A stretch of DNA of 64,000 nucleotides from Allobosea psychrotolerans (GTDB taxonomy: Bacteria; Pseudomonadota; Alphaproteobacteria; Rhizobiales; Beijerinckiaceae): assembly GCF_002917105.1 (NCBI RefSeq), contig NZ_PQFZ01000013.1, positions 62,001-126,000 of the forward strand. Direction: 5' to 3'. Position 1 is the first letter of the stretch, and each line of letters begins with the position of its first letter. The translations under genes were made by a program, and so were the position numbers. A model generated the notes under the pieces. That model saw only the letters and a list, made by a program, of their open reading frames with translations, was not told the origin of the DNA and ran no database searches. This document shows positions 23,473 through 62,065 of this stretch, piece by piece.

Positions 23473-23494
23473 GCGTTTTCGACGGCACCGCACC

Positions 23495-23640
23495 GTCATT
23501 CCGGGACATGGCGAAGCCATGGGCCTGGAACCCAGAACCGCTAAGCGTCCTCGTGAAGCGACCCGGCGACCCGTGCCTTCTCAGGCAGCCGCATCGGTTC
23601 TGGGTTCCGGGCTCGATCCTTCGGATCGCCCCGGAATGAC
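23495..23640. repeat. Dispersed palindromic repeat family B, copy 3
   Basis: gtcattccgggacatggc at the left and gatcgccccggaatgac at the right, with cctggaacccagaaccg and cggttctgggttccgg arms inside. It lies between convergent genes. Confidence 0.85.
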
Positions 23641-23669
23641 GGAGCGGTTGTTGCGGTCGACATCTCCGC

Positions 23670-29400: not shown

Positions 29401-31704
29401 CTAGCCAGCCACTGCGATTGCCGCCCGCTCCTGCGCCTCGACCACCGCCAGCGCCGTCATGTTGACGACGCCGCGCGCCGTCACCGAGCCGGTGAGGATA
29501 TGGGCGGGCTTGGCCGCGCCGATCAGGATCGGCCCGACGGGCAGCGCGTCCGCCAGCACCTTGGCGAATTGATAGGCGATGTTGGCGGCGTCGAGATTGG
29601 GGAAAATCAGGACGTTGGCGACGCCCTTCAGGCGCGACGAGGGCAGCACGCGCTCGCGCACCATGGCGACGAGCGCGGTATCGGCCTCCATCTCGCCGTC
29701 GCATTCCAGCTCCGGCGCACGCTCGCGGATCAGGCCGAGAGCCTTGCGCATCTTGAGCGAGGAGGGCGTGTCGGCGGCGCCGAAATCCGAATGCGAGAGC
29801 AAGGCGATCTTGGGTTCGATGCCGAAGCGCGCGACATGGCTCGCCGCGAGCACCGTCATGTCGGCGATCTCCTCGGCGGTCGGGTCGGCCTTCACATGGG
29901 TGTCGGCCAGGAAGAAGGCGCCCTTGTTGGTGATGATCAGGGTCATCGCCGAGATGTCGCAGACGCCGGGCTGCAGGCCGATGATGTCCTTGATGTGCCG
30001 CAGCCGCGAGAGATAGCGCCCCTCCAGCCCGGCGATCATGGCGTCGGCCTCGCCGCGCGCCACGGCCAGCGCCGCGATGACCGTGTTGTTGGTGCGCACC
30101 AGCGAGCGGGCGGCGTCGGGCGTGATGCCGCGCCGGCCGGCGATGTCGAGATAGGTCTGGACGTAGTCGCGATAGCGCGGATCGTCCTCCGGATTGATCA
30201 GTTCGAAATCCCGGCCGGGCTTGATCGACAGGCCGAAGCGCTCGATGCGCGTCTCGATCACGCTCGGGCGGCCGATCAGGATCGGGACCGCGAGCCCTTC
30301 CTCGAGCGCGACCTGGGCGGCGCGCAGCACGCGCTCATCCTCGCCCTCGGCATAGATCACGCGCTTGGGGTCGGCCTTCGCCTGGGCGAAGAGCGGCTTC
30401 ATGATGAAGCCGGAGCGGAAGACGAAGCGCGACAGGTCCTCGCGATAGGCCTCGACATCCTCGAGCGGTTTGCGCGCCACGCCGGTCGCCATCGCGGCCT
30501 CGGCGACGGCGGGTGCGATGCGCAGGATCAGGCGCGGGTCGAAGGGGTTGGGGATCAGCGAGGTCGCACCAAAAGTCGAGGCCTCGCCGCCATAGGCGCG
30601 CGCCGCGATGTCCGAGGTCGCCTCACGGGCAAGCGCCGCGATGGCGCGCACGGCCGCGAGCTTCATCGCCTCGTTGATCGTCGTCGCCTGCACGTCGAGC
30701 GCGCCGCGGAAGATATAGGGAAAGCACAGGACGTTGTTGACCTGGTTCGGATAGTCCGAGCGCCCGGTGCAGATCATCGCGTCCGGGCGCACGGCGAGCG
30801 CGTCCTCCGGCGTGATCTCGGGGTTGGGGTTGGCGAGCGCCAGGATCAAGGGCTTGGCTGCCATCTGCTTGGCCATCTCGGGCTTGAGCACGCCCGCCGC
30901 GGAGAGGCCGAGGAAGATGTCGGCGCCGCCGATGACCTCGGCCAGCGTGCGGGCGTCGGTCTCCTGCGCATAGACCTCCTTCCAGCGGTCCATCAGCGTG
31001 TTGCGGCCCTTATGGACCACGCCTTCGAGGTCGGTGACCCAGATATTCCGGCGCTGGGCCCCGAGCGAGACCAGCAGGTTGAGGCAGGCGAGCGCGGCGG
31101 CGCCTGCGCCGGAGACGACGATCTTGACTTCGCCGATATGCTTGCCGGAGAGATCGAGCCCGTTCAGCACCGCCGCGCTGACGATGATCGCCGTGCCGTG
31201 CTGGTCGTCATGGAAGACCGGGATCTGCATCCGGGCCTTGAGCTGCTCCTCGATCTCGAAGCATTCGGGACCCTTGATGTCCTCGAGATTGATGCCGCCG
31301 AAGGTCGGCTCCAGCGCCGCGACGACCTCGACGAATTTCTCGATGTTCTTCTGCTCGACCTCGATGTCGAAGCAGTCGATGCCGGCGAATTTCTTGAACA
31401 GGACCGCCTTGCCCTCCATCACCGGCTTGGAGGCGAGCGGTCCGATGTCGCCGAGGCCGAGCACGGCGGTACCGTTGGTGATGACGGCGACGAGGTTCTG
31501 GCGCGAGGTCAGTTCGGCGGCCTGGCTGGGATCGTCGACGATCGCCTCGCAGGCGGCAGCCACGCCGGGCGAATAGGCCAGCGCCAGATCGCGCTGGTTG
31601 CCGAGCGGCTTGGTCGCCTGGATTTCGATCTTACCGGGGCGTGGGCTGCGATGGTAGACGAGCGCGCCCGAGCGCATATCCGCCGACAAGGTACTCTTGG
31701 CCAT
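29401..31704 (-). CDS. maeB: NADP-dependent malic enzyme with C-terminal phosphotransacetylase-like domain
   Basis: This 767-residue MaeB-type enzyme decarboxylates malate to pyruvate with NADP+ reduction. The N-terminal part (about 1-430) has [12 protein letters not shown], the malic-enzyme [14 protein letters not shown] motif, [11 protein letters not shown] (metal site) and a Rossmann region [13 protein letters not shown]. The C-terminal part (about 445-765) is a phosphotransacetylase-like domain, usually regulatory. ATG 31704 is preferred to GTG 31710. The enzyme links C4 acids to pyruvate and NADPH supply. Length is standard for the fused class. Confidence 0.95.
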
Positions 31705-32010
31705 CCCCACGCTTCCTTCGCATCGCCGTCAATCCGAGCAAACGGGGTCGCGCGGAAAAGCGGCGGCGTCAAGCGCGGGCGGGAGATGAAGGGCTCGCGC
31801 CGAGGCAAATTCTTCGAACCCGCACCGAGCCCAGCTGCCGAAGGCAGCGTGGAAGCCCGCCGCCAGCCCAGCATGAATGGCGGCTTAACAAGGCCGGCAT
31901 CGCGAAAAAATAATGCGCTTGGAGCGCCATGGTTGCGCTGAATTATCGTTCCCACATGCCCGCCGCTCGGTCATTGGCCGGCTGTTCCTGGCGGTTCTTC
32001 CTGGGAGGGG
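31705..32010. other. 306-bp divergent intergenic region
   Basis: I see no gene and no copy of the dispersed repeats here, unlike most gaps in the window. It must hold the promoters of maeB and of the MoxR operon. A TTAAC half-site occurs near 31885. GGGAGGGG stands directly before the MoxR start. Confidence 0.5.
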
Positions 32011-33048
32011 ATGATGGACGCAATGCGCTCAGCCTTCGACGAAGTCGTCACGCTGCGTCAGGCCAAGCAACTGATCCAGTGCATGGCTCATGAGCAGAGC
32101 TTTCTGCTGCTTTCGGCCCCGGGATTGGGCAAGTCCGAGCTGGTTTATGAGGCGGCGCGCGAGGCCGGCCTGCCCTGCCGCTCGCTGCTCGGCACGCAGA
32201 TCGCTCCTGAGGATGTGAGCGGTATTCCGCGCATCATCGGCGAGCGCTCGGTCTTCTGCCCGCCGCGCGTCCTGCTGCCGGAGAAGCCTGAACCCTTCTG
32301 CCTGTTCCTCGATGAATTGCCGGCCTGCTCGCCCGACGTCCAGAAGGCGTTCTACTCGCTCCTGCTCGAGCGCCGGCTCGGCGAGCATGCCCTGCCCAAG
32401 GGCACCTGGGTGGTCGCAGCGGGCAACCGCCTGCAGGACCGCGCCCTGGTGCGGGCGATGAGCTCGGCCCTCGTCAACCGCGTCACCATCCTGCAATTGC
32501 GGGTGGATGTCGCGGAATGGCTCGCCTGGGCGCAGCGCGCCGGCGTCCGGGCCGAGATCCGCAGCTTCATCGCGACGATTCCCGACGCCCTGATGCGCCC
32601 GGTGCCGGCCGAGCCGACGCCGTTCTCGACGCCGCGCGCCTGGGCGCTGCTGTCGCGCGCGCTCGACATGGCCCAGAAGGCCGGGCTGCTCGGCAACGAG
32701 ACGCGCCGGGCGCTGGCTTTCGGGCGGCTCTCGCCGGAGGATGCGGTGGTGTTCTGCGCGCTGGCGGAGGATTCGATCGGCGCCGTGCGGCCGCTGGAGG
32801 AATATCTGCGCAAGCCGGAGCTCCTGCCCAAGGGCGATTCGGCGCGCTGGTTCATCCTCGACTGCATCCGCCAATTCGTCCGCGACGGCCGGGCTGACGG
32901 CATCAGGCCGCATGTCGTCAACCGCTTCCTGCGCGCCCTCTCCAGCGAGCATCAGCTCCTCCTGCTCAACGACATGGTCGAGACATGGGGCGCGCTCGGG
33001 GCCGACCGCGCCATGCACGCGCTCCTGCGCAAGGTCGCGGCGGCATGA
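32011..33048 (+). CDS. MoxR-type AAA+ ATPase
   Basis: This 345-residue AAA+ ATPase has Walker A at 36-42 (APGLGKS), Walker B at 96-103 (FCLFLDEL), sensor-1 asparagine N139 in VVAAGNR and a helical lid in the C-terminal half. MoxR proteins act as chaperone-like ATPases with VWA partners. The stop overlaps the start of the next gene (ATGA), so the two are translationally coupled. The Shine-Dalgarno sequence GGGAGG fits ATG 32014 slightly better than ATG 32011. It is the first gene of a three-gene operon with a metallopeptidase-VWA protein and an LCCL protein. Confidence 0.9.
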   Translation: MMDAMRSAFDEVVTLRQAKQLIQCMAHEQSFLLLSAPGLGKSELVYEAAREAGLPCRSLLGTQIAPEDVSGIPRIIGERSVFCPPRVLLPEKPEPFCLFLDELPACSPDVQKAFYSLLLERRLGEHALPKGTWVVAAGNRLQDRALVRAMSSALVNRVTILQLRVDVAEWLAWAQRAGVRAEIRSFIATIPDALMRPVPAEPTPFSTPRAWALLSRALDMAQKAGLLGNETRRALAFGRLSPEDAVVFCALAEDSIGAVRPLEEYLRKPELLPKGDSARWFILDCIRQFVRDGRADGIRPHVVNRFLRALSSEHQLLLLNDMVETWGALGADRAMHALLRKVAAA

Positions 33049-34304
33049 ACGGCGCTCCGGAGAGGCCTGCCGATGAACGCGCCACCCGCGCGCGGATCGC
33101 GAAGGGCTTGCGGCTGGTGACAGTCCCGTTTCCGCATCTCTCGGGCCTGGCGGCGGCGGTGCGCGTCGAGATCGATGCGCGCGTGCCGACGATGGGCGTC
33201 TTCGCCTCCGGCCGGATGCTGGTGAACCCGTCCTTCACAGCGCGGCTCTCGGCCGACGATCTCGTCTTCGTGCTCGCCCACGAGCTCCTGCATCTGGCGC
33301 TGCGCACCCATGACCGGGCGCGCGGCAGCGCCGCGCTCGAGTTCAACTACGCCCATGACTACATCCTCAACGACATCCTGCGGCAGGCGTTGGGCACGGT
33401 GACGATCCCGGCGGGCGGGCTCGACATGCCCGGCGCGCGCGAGAAATCGGCCGAGGAGATCGTCCTCGACATGCGCCGCAGCAGCCACTTCATGTCCTCC
33501 CGCACGCAGGTCTGGGAGGGACAGGTCGCGACCGTCGAGCAGGTGCTCGGCGCTGCCCGGCAGGCGCCCGACGGCACGATGGGCGACGCGCTCGACGCCA
33601 GGCGCGAGCGCGAGCTTTTCCCGCAGGACACGGCCGACCAGGCTGAGCGCAGCCGGGCGATCCGCGATCTGGCCGGGCGCGGCATGGTGCTGGCCAAGGC
33701 GATGGGCGCGATGCGCGGACGCGGTGACGGGCCGGGTGGTTCGCAGCAGCATGTCCAGGCACAGCGCGGCCTCTACCGCACGCCCTGGCATGTCGCGCTC
33801 CAGATCTGGCTCGAAGGCGCAGCACCGGGCGAGCGGAGCTTCACCCGCGCCTCGCGGCGCGGCAACGACCGCACCGATCTCGTGATGCCGGGCCGCAAGC
33901 GCCATTCCTGGATGCTCAACGTCATCCTCGACACCAGCGCCTCGATGGGGGACGAGATCCCGCTCGTGCTCGGCGCCATCGCCGATTTCTGCGATGTGGC
34001 CGGGGTCGACGAGATCCGCGTCGTGCAGTGCGATACCGTCGTGACCTCCGACGAAATCCTCTCGCCGGGCGGGCTCGCGACTTACGAGATCTCAGGCTAT
34101 GGCGGCAGCGACCTGACGCCGGCGCTCGCCGCTCTGGCCGAGGATGGGCGTGTGACCGCCGCGGTCGTCATCACCGATGGCGACATCACCTACCCGGCCG
34201 AGCCCGTTCCCTATGCGGTGCTCTGGGTGCTGCCGAAACCCTCCTCGACCTTCCAGCCGCCCTATGGGCGGGTCATCACCCTGGAGCCGGGAGACATGCC
34301 GTGA
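33045..34304 (+). CDS. Putative metallopeptidase-VWA fusion protein (DUF2201 type)
   Basis: This 419-residue protein has two recognisable parts. The N-terminal half carries a zincin motif HELLH at 79-83 with downstream NYAHDYILND. The C-terminal domain is VWA-like, with the MIDAS DxSxS at 296-300 (DTSAS), a conserved SDLTPAL threonine and ITDGD at 376-380. This architecture matches the DUF2201 / VWA-like family of predicted metallopeptidases found next to MoxR ATPases. The active site looks intact. The likely role is an ATPase-controlled protease or chaperone; the target is unknown. The start overlaps the MoxR stop by 4 bp. Confidence 0.85.
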   Translation: MNGAPERPADERATRARIAKGLRLVTVPFPHLSGLAAAVRVEIDARVPTMGVFASGRMLVNPSFTARLSADDLVFVLAHELLHLALRTHDRARGSAALEFNYAHDYILNDILRQALGTVTIPAGGLDMPGAREKSAEEIVLDMRRSSHFMSSRTQVWEGQVATVEQVLGAARQAPDGTMGDALDARRERELFPQDTADQAERSRAIRDLAGRGMVLAKAMGAMRGRGDGPGGSQQHVQAQRGLYRTPWHVALQIWLEGAAPGERSFTRASRRGNDRTDLVMPGRKRHSWMLNVILDTSASMGDEIPLVLGAIADFCDVAGVDEIRVVQCDTVVTSDEILSPGGLATYEISGYGGSDLTPALAALAEDGRVTAAVVITDGDITYPAEPVPYAVLWVLPKPSSTFQPPYGRVITLEPGDMP

Positions 34305-34317
34305 AAGGAGGCTTGCC

Positions 34318-34704
34318 ATGAAAGTCGTCCAGGACCTGATCGCCTATTTCGACCGGCGCGGACAGCTGTCGCGCCGGCAGCTCAAGAAGCTGCTCGATCA
34401 GAACTCCGTCGCCTCCGAGGCGCCGCCGAACATGCACGGACTCTGCGAAAAAGTTGGTGCGGTCTATTATTTCCGCATTACGGGCGTGGTCGAAGGCCAG
34501 CTCTGGGGCACGGATATCTATAGCGGCGATTCGGCGCTTGGGGCTGCCGCCGTGCATATGGGGCTGCTGAAGCCCGGCAAGACCGGCGTTTTCCGGGTCA
34601 CGGTGGTGACGCCGCCGGAAAAATTCCCCGGCACCGAACGCAACGGCGTGACCAGCACCGAATATGGCAGCTACCAATATGCCTGGCAGCTCTCGGCGAT
34701 TTGA
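34318..34704 (+). CDS. LCCL-domain protein, third gene of the MoxR/VWA operon
   Basis: This 128-residue cytoplasmic-looking protein has no signal peptide. Residues about 1-30 are a basic helical segment (FDRRGQLSRRQLKKLL). Residues about 43-125 resemble an LCCL domain: LWGTDIYSGDSALGAAAVHMGLL, then a beta-rich part with GVTSTEYGSYQYAWQL. LCCL was first described in animal extracellular proteins (Limulus factor C, cochlin); bacterial versions exist but are poorly characterised. A perfect AAAGGAGG Shine-Dalgarno sequence lies 6 nt before ATG 34318, only 13 bp after the VWA stop, so it belongs to the operon. It may be the ligand-sensing or adaptor part. Confidence 0.75.
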   Translation: MKVVQDLIAYFDRRGQLSRRQLKKLLDQNSVASEAPPNMHGLCEKVGAVYYFRITGVVEGQLWGTDIYSGDSALGAAAVHMGLLKPGKTGVFRVTVVTPPEKFPGTERNGVTSTEYGSYQYAWQLSAI

Positions 34705-34791
34705 ACGCGGGGCTGGCGACGATGCCCTGAATTGCTCGTTGTGGCTTGCTCTGACGGCCTTGAGCGCTGAGCGATGGCGCTATTCTCTGCC

Positions 34792-34938
34792 GTCATTCCG
34801 GGGCGATCCGAAGGATCGAGCCCGGAACCCAGAACCGATGCCGCTGCTTGAGAAGGCAAGGGGGGGCCGGCTCGCTTCACGACGACACGCATCGGTTCTG
34901 GGTTCCGGGCCCATGGCTGCGCCATGTCCCGGAATGAC
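34792..34938. repeat. Dispersed palindromic repeat family B, copy 5
   Basis: gtcattccggggcgatccgaagg ... catgtcccggaatgac with inner cccggaacccagaaccg / cggttctgggttccggg. It occupies most of the 300-bp gap after the LCCL gene. Confidence 0.85.
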
Positions 34939-35004
34939 GGCAGAGAATAACGTGGTCGCCGAGCGTCGTGAGATTAAGCCGTGGCGGAGAGCCTACGTCT
35001 CCGC

Positions 35005-35241
35005 TCAGAACGCCTTGAACGTAATGATCGTGTGCGTGTCGGAGATTTCCGGGATCGACTGCACCTTCTGGGCGATGAAATGGCCAATATCGACATCGGC
35101 CGCGACATGGAACTTCGCCAGGATGTCGTAATTGCCGGCGGTCGAGTAGATTTCCGAGGCGATCTCGCGGTCGGCGAGTTCGCTGGCGACCGCATAGGTC
35201 TTGCCGAGCTTGCATTTGATCTCGACGAAGAAGGTCTGCAT
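35005..35241 (-). CDS. Stand-alone Lrp/AsnC ligand-binding (RAM) domain protein
   Basis: This 78-residue protein consists only of the RAM/Lrp C-terminal domain: MQTFFVEIKCKLGKTYAVAS, then TAGNYDILAKFHV and a final SDTHTIITFKAF. There is no helix-turn-helix. Such single-domain proteins form oligomers that bind amino acids or modulate Lrp-type regulators. An in-frame start at 35256 would add five residues. It lies alone between repeat-filled gaps, so its partner cannot be read from context. Confidence 0.85.
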   Translation of the reverse strand: MQTFFVEIKCKLGKTYAVASELADREIASEIYSTAGNYDILAKFHVAADVDIGHFIAQKVQSIPEISDTHTIITFKAF

Positions 35242-39254: not shown

Positions 39255-39275
39255 CGATTTGCGGGAAACACTGCC

Positions 39276-39420
39276 GTCATTCCGGGGCGATCCGAAGGAT
39301 CGAGCCTGGAACCCAGAGCCGATGCGGGTTCTCCATAACGCGCTCGCATGGCGAGCCTCAAACGTCGCGCGCATCGGTTCTGGGTTCCGGGCTCAGGCCT
39401 GCGGCCTGCCCCGGAATGAC
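39276..39420. repeat. Dispersed palindromic repeat family B, copy 6
   Basis: gtcattccggggcgatccg ... ggcctgccccggaatgac, between convergent sulP and the Tat-exported protein gene. Confidence 0.85.
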
Positions 39421-39450
39421 GGCGGTGTTTCATTGCGCCCTGGTTTCGCC

Positions 39451-40830: not shown

Positions 40831-40930
40831 CGAAGCCTCCGTGAGCGCCGGGTGCTTCAAGCGGCGTGCCGTGGCTGCTGTCCCGCCTTGGGATGGTGTC
40901 CGGGCCTGAGAGCACGTTGGAACCACTACC

Positions 40931-44583: not shown

Positions 44584-44618
44584 GGGTTTTGAGACCGGCC
44601 TGCGACCGAGGCTCCCCC

Positions 44619-44764
44619 GTCATTCCGGGGCGATCCGAAGGATCGAGCCCGGAACCCAGAACCGATGCCGCCGCTTGAGAAGGCATGGGGCGCGGGTTCG
44701 CTTCATGACAACACGCATCGGTTCTGGGTTCCGGGCTCAGGCCTGCGGCCTGCCCCGGAATGAC
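44619..44764. repeat. Dispersed palindromic repeat family B, copy 8
   Basis: gtcattccggggcgatccgaagg ... ggcctgccccggaatgac, in the gap before the secreted hydrolase gene. Confidence 0.85.
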
Positions 44765-44879
44765 GGGCGAGAACAACGCCATCGCTCAGCGCTGAAGGCC
44801 GTCAAGATGAGCCATCGCGCTTGCCCGTCATCGCCTCGCGACGCAGGATCGCGCTGGGCGATGATGCAAGGTACTGACG

Positions 44880-47850: not shown

Positions 47851-47905
47851 GGCGGGATGCTAGGCGGCGGCGTTGGAGGCTGATGATTTCAGTCTGAACC
47901 ACGCC

Positions 47906-48051
47906 GTCATTCCGGGGCGACCCGTAGGGTCGAGCCCGGAACCCAGAACCACAGGTGGTGACGAGATAAGCGCTGCCGATGATGAGGCCTGAATCCCAGT
48001 TCCGTCGGTTCTGGGTTCCGGGCTCAGGCCTGCGGCCTGCCCCGGAATGAC
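47906..48051. repeat. Dispersed palindromic repeat family B, copy 9
   Basis: gtcattccggggcgacccg ... ggcctgccccggaatgac, between convergent genes. Confidence 0.85.
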
Positions 48052-48075
48052 GGTGGCGGGGCAATTCACGACGCT

Positions 48076-60079: not shown

Positions 60080-62065
60080 CTAATCGGGCAATGCCGAGAT
60101 GGCAAGCGCGCTTTCGAGCAGGGCCACGACATCGCAGCCGGCATGGATGAAGTCGCTGACACCGGCCGCCCTGAGCGCGGCCTCGCTCTCGCCTGGCCGC
60201 CCTGCAAGCCAGATCGTCGCGCCGGCTTGCTGGAGCACCGTGGCGGCTGCGGCCGCCTCCGCCGCATAGCGCTCATCCGAGCCGCAGAGGCAGGCGAGGC
60301 GCGCGCCCGATGCCTTGTAGGCTGCGACGAGGGCCGCAAGATCGGTCGCACCGTCCTTGGCGAAGCCGTCATCGCTGCGCGCCGCCAGCCCCCCGGTCTC
60401 GAACAGGTTGCGGGCGAAGCCGGCGCGCGCGGTGAAATCGGCGATCGGCCCCAGCGTCGCCAGGAAGACGGTCGGGCGCTCGGGGAAGGCGTCGGCCTTG
60501 TCGCGCAGGGCCTCGAACGCCTCGGCCAGACGATGCGAGGGCAGGGGCTCGGCTCGCAGCGCCTCTTCCGGCGCGCTCAACGCCTGCTCGCGCGTCGCGC
60601 CCTGAGCCAGCCGGGCGATGAGGTCGCCCTGGTCCTGGGTGCTCGCCTTGGTCGCGGAGGGGCGGGCTGCCCGGCGCGCGGCGGGCGCGACATCGAGCAC
60701 GCTGACGGGGGCCTCTTTCAGATTGGCGAATTCGCTCGTCCCGGTGATCGGCTCGCGGCGCGTGGCGATCGCCTTGGCGCGCGCCTCCCTCTGGCGGGCG
60801 AGGCCTGCCTGGACATGGCCGTTCGTCAAGGCCGAGACGATGCCCGGCAGGCCGCCCTGGGCCTCGCGCTCGAGGTCCTGGAACTTGCTCCAGCCCTGCT
60901 CGCAGAGCGCTTGGGTCAGGCTCTCGAAGCTGCCGGCCCCGGCGGCGGGGTCGGCGACGCGCCAGAGATTGGCCTCTTCGAGCAGCACGAGCTGGGTGTT
61001 GCGCGCGATGCGGCGGGCGAAAGCGTCGGGCAGGCCGAGCGCCGCCGTGAAGGGCAGGACGGTGAGGCTGTCAGCGCCACCGATCCCGGCCGAGAAGGTC
61101 GCGATCGTGCCGCGCAGCATATTGACCCAAGGGTCGCGCCTGGTCAGCGAGCGCCAGGCGGTCTCGGCATGCAGGGGCATCGGCTTCGGCGCGAGCCCGC
61201 AGGCCGTCTGCACGCGCTCCCAAAGCAGCCGGGCGGCGCGGAACTTGGCGATGGTCATGAACTCGTCGGTGTCGGCGACGAGGACGAAGGAGATCGCGTC
61301 GCGCGCCTCATCCAGCGCCATGCCTTGCGCTTCGAGCGCGCGCAGATAGGCGACCGCCGTGGCAAGCGCAGCGCCGAGTTCCTGCGCCTCGCTCGCCCCG
61401 GCCTCGTGATAAAGCCGGGCGTCGGCGCTGAGGAAGGGGCCCTTGAAGCCGCGCTCCCTCAGCGCCCGGACCGTCTCCGCCAGCCGGCGGCCGATCTCGG
61501 GCCAGGATGCGGCGAAGACGCCTTCGCTCGCCAGCAGCCCGATCGGGTCGAGTCCGAAATCGACCGCGCCGCGATCGGGCGCGATGCCGCGCTTCTCGAA
61601 CAGGGCCGCCAGCAGGAGCGCATTGACGCGGCCCTGCGGGGCTGGGTCGAGCCGCAGCCGGATCAGCTCCAGCATGACGCCGTCAAGCGCTGCATCGAGC
61701 GCGGCGACATCGCCCGCGACGAGCCCGTGGCCGCGCGCCGCACGCGCCCCCACGAAGGACAGCGCCAGCGAATCCGCCCCGCCTTCGAGATCGGCCAAGG
61801 CGAGTTCCTGGGCTTGCGCCGGTTCGGGATGGTCGACGCGTGCCGCGACATGCCAGCGGCCGGCCTCGGCGCGCAGCGGCCTCTGCGTCGGGCTGGCGGC
61901 GGCATAAAGCGGCTCGATGCGGATGCCGTCGGCGCTGCGGCCGACCAGCCGCTTCTCGAAATCGGCGCCCTTCAGGACCTTGTCGACCGCGCCCCGCCAT
62001 TGCTCCAGGGAGGGCGAGGGAAAGGCGTTCATGAAAGGCAGGTCTGACAATGCGGCCGCGTTCAT
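60080..62065 (-). CDS. Methylmalonyl-CoA mutase, small subunit
   Basis: This 661-residue protein starts MNAAALSDLPF. It has the mutase TIM-barrel fold (AETAWRSLTRRDPWVNMLRGT, RIARNTQLVLLEEANLWRVADPAAGAG) but no DxHxxG cobalamin motif in its C-terminal domain, as in the non-catalytic small subunits of heterodimeric mutases (Propionibacterium MutA type). It stabilises the catalytic large subunit. ATG 62065 is preferred to 62122. It is the first gene of the unit mutase-small, toxin remnant, antitoxin, thiD, mutase-large. Confidence 0.92.
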   Translation of the reverse strand: MNAAALSDLPFMNAFPSPSLEQWRGAVDKVLKGADFEKRLVGRSADGIRIEPLYAAASPTQRPLRAEAGRWHVAARVDHPEPAQAQELALADLEGGADSLALSFVGARAARGHGLVAGDVAALDAALDGVMLELIRLRLDPAPQGRVNALLLAALFEKRGIAPDRGAVDFGLDPIGLLASEGVFAASWPEIGRRLAETVRALRERGFKGPFLSADARLYHEAGASEAQELGAALATAVAYLRALEAQGMALDEARDAISFVLVADTDEFMTIAKFRAARLLWERVQTACGLAPKPMPLHAETAWRSLTRRDPWVNMLRGTIATFSAGIGGADSLTVLPFTAALGLPDAFARRIARNTQLVLLEEANLWRVADPAAGAGSFESLTQALCEQGWSKFQDLEREAQGGLPGIVSALTNGHVQAGLARQREARAKAIATRREPITGTSEFANLKEAPVSVLDVAPAARRAARPSATKASTQDQGDLIARLAQGATREQALSAPEEALRAEPLPSHRLAEAFEALRDKADAFPERPTVFLATLGPIADFTARAGFARNLFETGGLAARSDDGFAKDGATDLAALVAAYKASGARLACLCGSDERYAAEAAAAATVLQQAGATIWLAGRPGESEAALRAAGVSDFIHAGCDVVALLESALAISALPD

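Follow-up and report, generated by a model that had tools for sequence, protein, structure and literature searches.

Pairs of genes for a MoxR-type AAA+ ATPase and a protein with a VWA (or vWA) domain have been described in several settings, and excerpts of two papers cover those closest to the locus reported here. In the excerpts of PMC7159879, the studied MoxR-vWA pairs help in the assembly or restructuring of partner complexes, with maturation roles of the CoxD/CoxE and RavA/ViaA type, and ternary systems, in which a third protein joins the pair, are presented as conflict systems of patchy spread. In those of PMC7824862, jumbo phages encode a MoxR protein together with a vWA cochaperone that carries a fused metallopeptidase domain at its N-terminus, and for this pair a role in virion assembly with peptidolytic processing is proposed. 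Here we describe an operon of three + strand genes, at positions 32011-34704 of a 64,000-nucleotide window from Allobosea psychrotolerans (positions 62,001 to 126,000 of contig NZ_PQFZ01000013.1, assembly GCF_002917105.1). It encodes a MoxR ATPase (P0001), a metallopeptidase-VWA protein (P0002) and a small LCCL protein (P0003). The three are co-encoded and, within the genus, jointly present or absent, the LCCL protein is conserved, and together they form a three-component AAA+ unit. A first-pass annotation of this DNA had called the MoxR and HELLH/VWA proteins a known pair, and the excerpts of PMC7824862 show that it was already in print. The LCCL protein as third partner of that pair appears to be new: no literature joining LCCL with MoxR was found in open-licence PMC full text, and the term 'LCCL' is absent from the main text of PMC7159879.

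How does the trio compare with these systems? As far as the description in the PMC7824862 excerpts allows the comparison, it shares with the jumbo-phage pair a MoxR gene adjacent to a gene for a peptidase-fused vWA protein. The phage pair consists of two genes in phage genomes, whereas here the genes are chromosomal and LCCL is a third; the genes that flank the trio are common to trio-less genomes of the genus, which places it outside any phage genome. With VMAP and the other MoxR-vWA ternary systems, as excerpted from PMC7159879, it has in common a patchy distribution and a single operon in which another conserved protein is encoded beside MoxR and vWA. However, VMAP systems have the order VMAP-MoxR-vWA, while the order here is MoxR-VWA-LCCL and the gene before MoxR lies on the other strand. 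The MoxR protein of VMAP systems also carries an N-terminal extension with WxhapG and PsWRxa motifs. P0001 lacks that extension, its Walker A motif being preceded by about 35 residues with no Trp among them, and in our case a peptidase-like domain is part of the vWA protein.

N4-like phages provide a further comparison. A gp24-like protein of phage LIT1 matches P0001 (29.8% over 83%) and a gp25-like gene lies close by; in excerpts of PMC4193335 and PMC7650795, gp24 and gp25 are core genes of N4-like phages and gp25 has a vWFA domain. Unlike the trio, these phages have no LCCL match. P0001 is matched in 789 of 50,697 phage records. Among the 30 matches listed, most have 24-33% identity, and one, from an unannotated 'Bacteriophage sp.', reaches 48% over 64% of the protein. 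None of the 50,697 records matches P0003 or LCCL, and a scan of viral contigs with two short peptide patterns yielded no confirmed case, so a phage origin of the LCCL gene was rejected. Among plasmids there were 3 weak partial matches, and neither of the two inspected has an annotated MoxR or VWA gene.

Linkage and block-wise presence of the three genes

The genes of the unit are found together. Of the 67 genomes of the genus, 19 have a match to P0003, and it is these 19 that match P0001 too; the two matches lie 1256-1467 bp apart in every case. The genome_contigs collection holds seven loci with relatives of P0003 (83-95% identity), six from Bosea or Rhizobiales records and one from a Beijerinckiaceae metagenome-assembled genome, and the order is MoxR-VWA-LCCL in all seven; by their contig positions these belong to the 19 genomes and are not independent of them. 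In a sample of 199 genomes from the family P0003 is matched in seven, six of them at full length and 64-100%. In the seventh (G253), P0003 is matched only in part, at 32%, by a protein whose N-terminus is signal-like. P0002 is matched in 13 of the same 199, at 64% or more in exactly the six genomes with a full-length P0003 (the locus of one, G221, ends at a contig end, and in another, G275, the pair is broken into several frames beside an open LCCL gene) and at 24-35% in the other seven.

The gene boundaries and the divergence of the proteins agree with this picture. The end of the VWA gene and the start of the LCCL gene share 4 bases in 18 of 22 distinct loci; in the other four, gaps of 13, 13, 30 and 89 bp separate the two genes. 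The 22 replace an earlier set with 25 of 26 rows at full length, five loci of which are second copies of the same DNA. The distances between LCCL proteins are correlated with those between VWA proteins, in the way that co-inherited genes would be (r 0.95 over 20 of the distinct loci, after removal of two whose VWA match is short).

Beyond the family there are partial LCCL matches only, in 5 other genomes out of 199 in the order, 2 of 299 in the phylum and 9 of 385 in the class, with no match to P0001 or P0002 in these loci, most of them taken with flanks of up to 1.5 kb. The first-pass annotation relied on a conserved linkage between the LCCL gene and the MoxR/DUF2201 pair. This stands for all 19 genomes of the genus that carry the LCCL gene and does not hold in general, as 12 more distantly related MoxR loci (L039, L045, L046 and L064-L072) all lack a P0003-like open reading frame (ORF) of at least 60 residues. 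In these samples the trio does not extend beyond Bosea and its family, rarer cases elsewhere being possible. The nearest sister pair, L039 in genome G032 (MoxR 61%, VWA about 44% identity), has no LCCL gene beside it. Bosea groups with G032 in a MoxR tree of 17 rows (100/98); the tree carries a long-branch warning and its deeper placements are unsure. Among the ORFs listed at the sister locus is another, Pfam-less gene that overlaps the MoxR start (L039:4757-5725), which suggests that the third partners of MoxR/VWA pairs may be exchangeable. A gene of about 230 residues, also with no Pfam match, adjoins MoxR on its upstream side among the ORFs listed for L064 and L065. A third protein common to other pairs was considered and dropped, eight neighbouring ORFs having no Pfam match at an expectation value (E) of 0.01.

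Within the genus, the trio is present or absent as a block. A malic-enzyme-type gene flanks it in all seven genome_contigs loci (L027 covers only the start of that gene), while the right-hand neighbour varies. We examined seven trio-less Bosea genomes. In five of them the malic-enzyme-type gene and an Lrp-type gene are adjacent with no trio match between, at a spacing of 147-349 bp in four and about 1.3 kb in L105. L110 (G207) shares its right-hand DNA with the trio-bearing loci L028-L030 and L032 and holds about 130 bp in the position of the trio, and L111 has different right-hand genes. Since 48 of the 67 genomes of the genus are without it, the trio is accessory rather than housekeeping. 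The same junction varies in another respect. A stretch whose ORFs read as an ABC peptide-transporter module (L110:2031-7632), which also lies downstream of the LCCL gene in L028-L030 and L032, is itself present in some genomes and absent from others, so the junction tolerates insertions. A foreign origin of the trio was also sought in base composition and rejected, as the GC content at third codon positions (GC3) of the MoxR and VWA genes (0.88-0.89) is inside the range of six neighbours (0.835-0.912). The LCCL gene has a GC3 of 0.775, lower than its neighbours, but it is short and nothing is concluded from this value.

The three proteins and the missing cysteine

The MoxR gene (32011-33048, + strand) encodes 345 residues with an AAA+ core. 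P0001 matches Pfam AAA_5 above the cut-off (E 4.4e-6, 27.2 bits against 22), and its best PHROG family is the phage family phrog_1297, labelled 'ATPase' (E 1e-56). We take PGLGKS (37-42) to be the Walker A motif, LFLDE (98-102) the Walker B motif and R157 a candidate arginine finger. Residues P37, G38, G40, K41, S42, D101, E102 and R157 are invariant among 10 aligned homologues, so both Walker motifs are present.

The second gene (33045-34304, + strand) encodes 419 residues, with an N-terminal HELLH domain of metallopeptidase-like type and a C-terminal VWA domain. P0002 matches DUF2201_N (PF13203, E 4.5e-16) and DUF2201 (PF09967, E 3.1e-15), both above the cut-off. The HExxH motif and the metal-ion-dependent adhesion site (MIDAS), which had been reported as intact, are so in their letters: HELLH occupies residues 79-83 and DTSAS, of the form DxSxS, residues 296-300. 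Across 16 homologues, eight of which are close Bosea sequences, H79, H83, D105, N109, D296, S298, S300 and D378 are invariant, so that the VWA domain has its DxSxS and, in D378, its distal Asp. E80 is nearly so, L067 reading HHVLH at this place. The invariant D105 is a candidate third zinc ligand. In L064, L065 and L067, which come from one family of the same class, the VWA-type proteins beside MoxR are probably no peptidases, because their HExxH motif reads HHILH or HHVLH. P0002 also matches phrog_1314 over nearly its whole length (E 3.9e-42). The label of that family, 'HNH endonuclease', clashes with the Pfam result and looks wrong.

The LCCL gene (34318-34704, + strand) encodes 128 residues, a conserved N-terminal segment of about 45 residues followed by a cysteine-poor LCCL domain. 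P0003 is the only LCCL match of its genome (PF03815, E 1.5e-13, 51.2 bits against a curated cut-off of 22.6). The match joins residues 60-119 to positions 34-92 of the 96 in the profile. Of an LCCL domain placed by the first-pass annotation at residues 43-125, the central and C-terminal part is thus recovered, while the match leaves out residues 43-59 on the protein side and the first third of the profile. In the alignment of its orthologues (A1), 21 of the 45 columns of the N-terminal segment and 40 of the 83 columns of the rest are invariant, and the first 45 residues may be a docking segment. The gene is, by simple Nei-Gojobori estimates, under purifying selection. With the window gene as reference, the ratio of nonsynonymous to synonymous change (dN/dS) is 0.06-0.27 against ten orthologues, and with eight orthologues each it is 0.17-0.35 for the VWA gene and 0.04-0.17 for MoxR, figures in which synonymous change is high for the farthest orthologues. 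Pairwise pN/pS among the LCCL orthologues has a median of 0.275 and a maximum of 0.618.

The cysteine of the DSxxC motif has a disulfide role in LCCL domains. It is found in 40 of 40 aligned stretches of other bacterial LCCL proteins from 17 genomes, a count that includes overlapping pieces of the same proteins and from which six larger loci were omitted as repeats of the same genes. The corresponding position 75 of P0003 and its Bosea-type orthologues is glycine in 21 and alanine in one of the 22 distinct sequences, and never cysteine. Because of this replacement we file P0003 as a cysteine-poor LCCL homologue and not as a canonical LCCL domain. It shares with most of the other bacterial proteins a WG-x-x-x-Y-x-x-DS core, an H-x-G and an NG(V/I)(T/S). 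They differ from it in the cysteine, in having mostly signal-peptide-like N-termini and in the lack of a P0001 or P0002 match nearby. By eye, 11 of 13 other bacterial LCCL loci, some of which hold the same genes, have a signal-like N-terminus; L079 is without one, and no start is seen in L078. Inspected in the same way, P0003 has no visible signal peptide at its N-terminus, in line with what had first been noted. Since the DSxxC cysteine is absent and no signal peptide is visible, in contrast to its secreted-looking relatives, P0003 looks like an LCCL protein adapted to the cytosol, where we infer that it works.

A similar replacement is seen in Rxt3, a eukaryotic transcriptional regulatory protein that belongs to a histone deacetylase complex of the nucleus. 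Rxt3 is the best match of P0003 among sequences of solved structures (8i03_I, E 2.9e-4), and against the Pfam Rxt3 profile P0003 scores 28.7 bits, just below the cut-off of 29.9. In the alignment Rxt3 has alanine in place of the DSxxC cysteine. To our knowledge Rxt3 has no AAA+ or VWA context, and no literature joining Rxt3 with LCCL was found in open-licence PMC full text.

Operon signals and surroundings

The coupling of the three genes is as first described in every coordinate. An ATGA at 33045-33048 joins the MoxR stop to the VWA start, position 34304 is the last of the VWA stop, and the 13 bp before the LCCL start at 34318 contain the Shine-Dalgarno sequence AAGGAGG (34305-34311, + strand), read from the sequence six bases 5′ of the start codon. 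Upstream of the operon lies a weak promoter-like site, TTAACA-18-AATAAT (31885-31914, + strand; 10 of 12 consensus matches). The consensus scan of 31650-35010 that gave this site returned 2 sites against 0.4 expected, the second lying on the - strand within the LCCL gene.

Two genes outside the system border it, with names read from their translations alone. A putative malic-enzyme-type gene (29401-31710, - strand) forms the divergent left border, and a putative small Lrp/AsnC-type gene (35005-35241, - strand) is the right-hand neighbour in the window. Shortly 3′ of the LCCL gene, at 34790-34940, sits a copy of an intergenic repeat of about 150 bp that is bounded by CCGTCATTCCGGG and its reverse complement. 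There are five copies in the window, the others being at 23493-23642, 39274-39422, 44617-44766 and 47904-48053, and the left half of a sixth starts at 40929.

Possible roles of the trio

What might such a unit do? From the families involved, we give about an even chance to an ATP-driven remodelling or peptidolytic machine in which the LCCL protein is a cytosolic adaptor that recognises a client or ligand. MoxR would form a hexameric ring and power the VWA protein, whose MIDAS site would grip a client peptide; the HELLH domain of the same protein would then clip that client. The LCCL protein would remain in the cytosol and recognise the client or a small ligand, with its conserved N-terminal segment as the likely docking part. 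The general MoxR-vWA mechanism in this scheme is taken from the excerpts of PMC7159879, and the peptidase-fused pair from those of PMC7824862.

Several observations weigh against this proposal. The MoxR matches are shortened in three of the 19 genomes (G695, G717 and G693). At L035:988-3201 (G275) the MoxR/VWA part is broken into several frames, yet the LCCL gene is open, which is odd if LCCL needs the pair, unless it reflects decay or an assembly error. The correlated distances of LCCL and VWA can also be expected from shared genome ancestry alone. P0003 is cysteine-poor and not cysteine-free, C43 being invariant in all 22 distinct loci. Finally, AlphaFold models built from eight close sequences are too poor for a check of the zinc site of P0002 (mean predicted local distance difference test score, pLDDT, 41) or of the fold of P0003 (mean pLDDT 49).

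Is the LCCL protein an adaptor, or is it the client? The pair could fold, load or cleave the LCCL protein, which would itself carry the final activity. Tight linkage and co-inheritance fit this equally well, known MoxR-vWA pairs help to build or remodel partner complexes (PMC7159879, excerpts), and the open LCCL gene beside the broken pair of L035 is in keeping with it. That said, family searches recognised no catalytic motif in this small protein, and an N-terminal segment as invariant as the rest suits docking, without being proof of it; we consider a client role somewhat unlikely. A conflict system directed at phages or other elements, in which LCCL would sense an intruder and the ATPase and peptidase would act on it, would account for the patchy, block-wise distribution (19 of 67) and the general likeness to the ternary conflict systems in the PMC7159879 excerpts. 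However, the only PADLOC match is of no use (E 0.029 over 36 residues of P0001), the neighbours read as metabolic by their translations, unlike a defence island, no effector was recognised in the unit, and both the VMAP partner and the MoxR extension of VMAP systems are missing. We regard this role as distinctly unlikely.

A role in maturing one particular metalloenzyme or membrane complex, in the way of CoxD/CoxE or RavA/ViaA, is more improbable still. Such roles are listed for studied pairs in the excerpts of PMC7159879, but the operon contains no target enzyme gene and its downstream neighbour varies between genomes. Least credible of all is that the LCCL gene travels with the pair by chance and is functionally unconnected with it. 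The sister pair L039 does without an adjacent LCCL gene, and the genes beside distant pairs differ; against this stand the joint occurrence in 19 of 19 genomes, the 4-base overlap in 18 of 22 loci, the purifying selection and the correlated divergence.

To judge from sequence comparison, the trio is real, conserved and narrow in the spread seen so far, and is a variant of the MoxR-vWA three-part systems. A bolder form of the adaptor proposal, which we hold to be doubtful, is that a secreted LCCL recognition domain moved to the cytosol and shed both its signal peptide and its conserved cysteine, to end up as the recognition subunit dedicated to an ATP-driven peptidase machine. This would be a new kind of MoxR-vWA ternary system, one that reads an envelope- or invader-derived ligand inside the cell. 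A compact trio that comes and goes as a block provides a handle on what LCCL binds and on how MoxR-vWA pairs choose their clients. It also presents an LCCL domain that has apparently been refitted for the cell interior, for which Rxt3 is a possible parallel.

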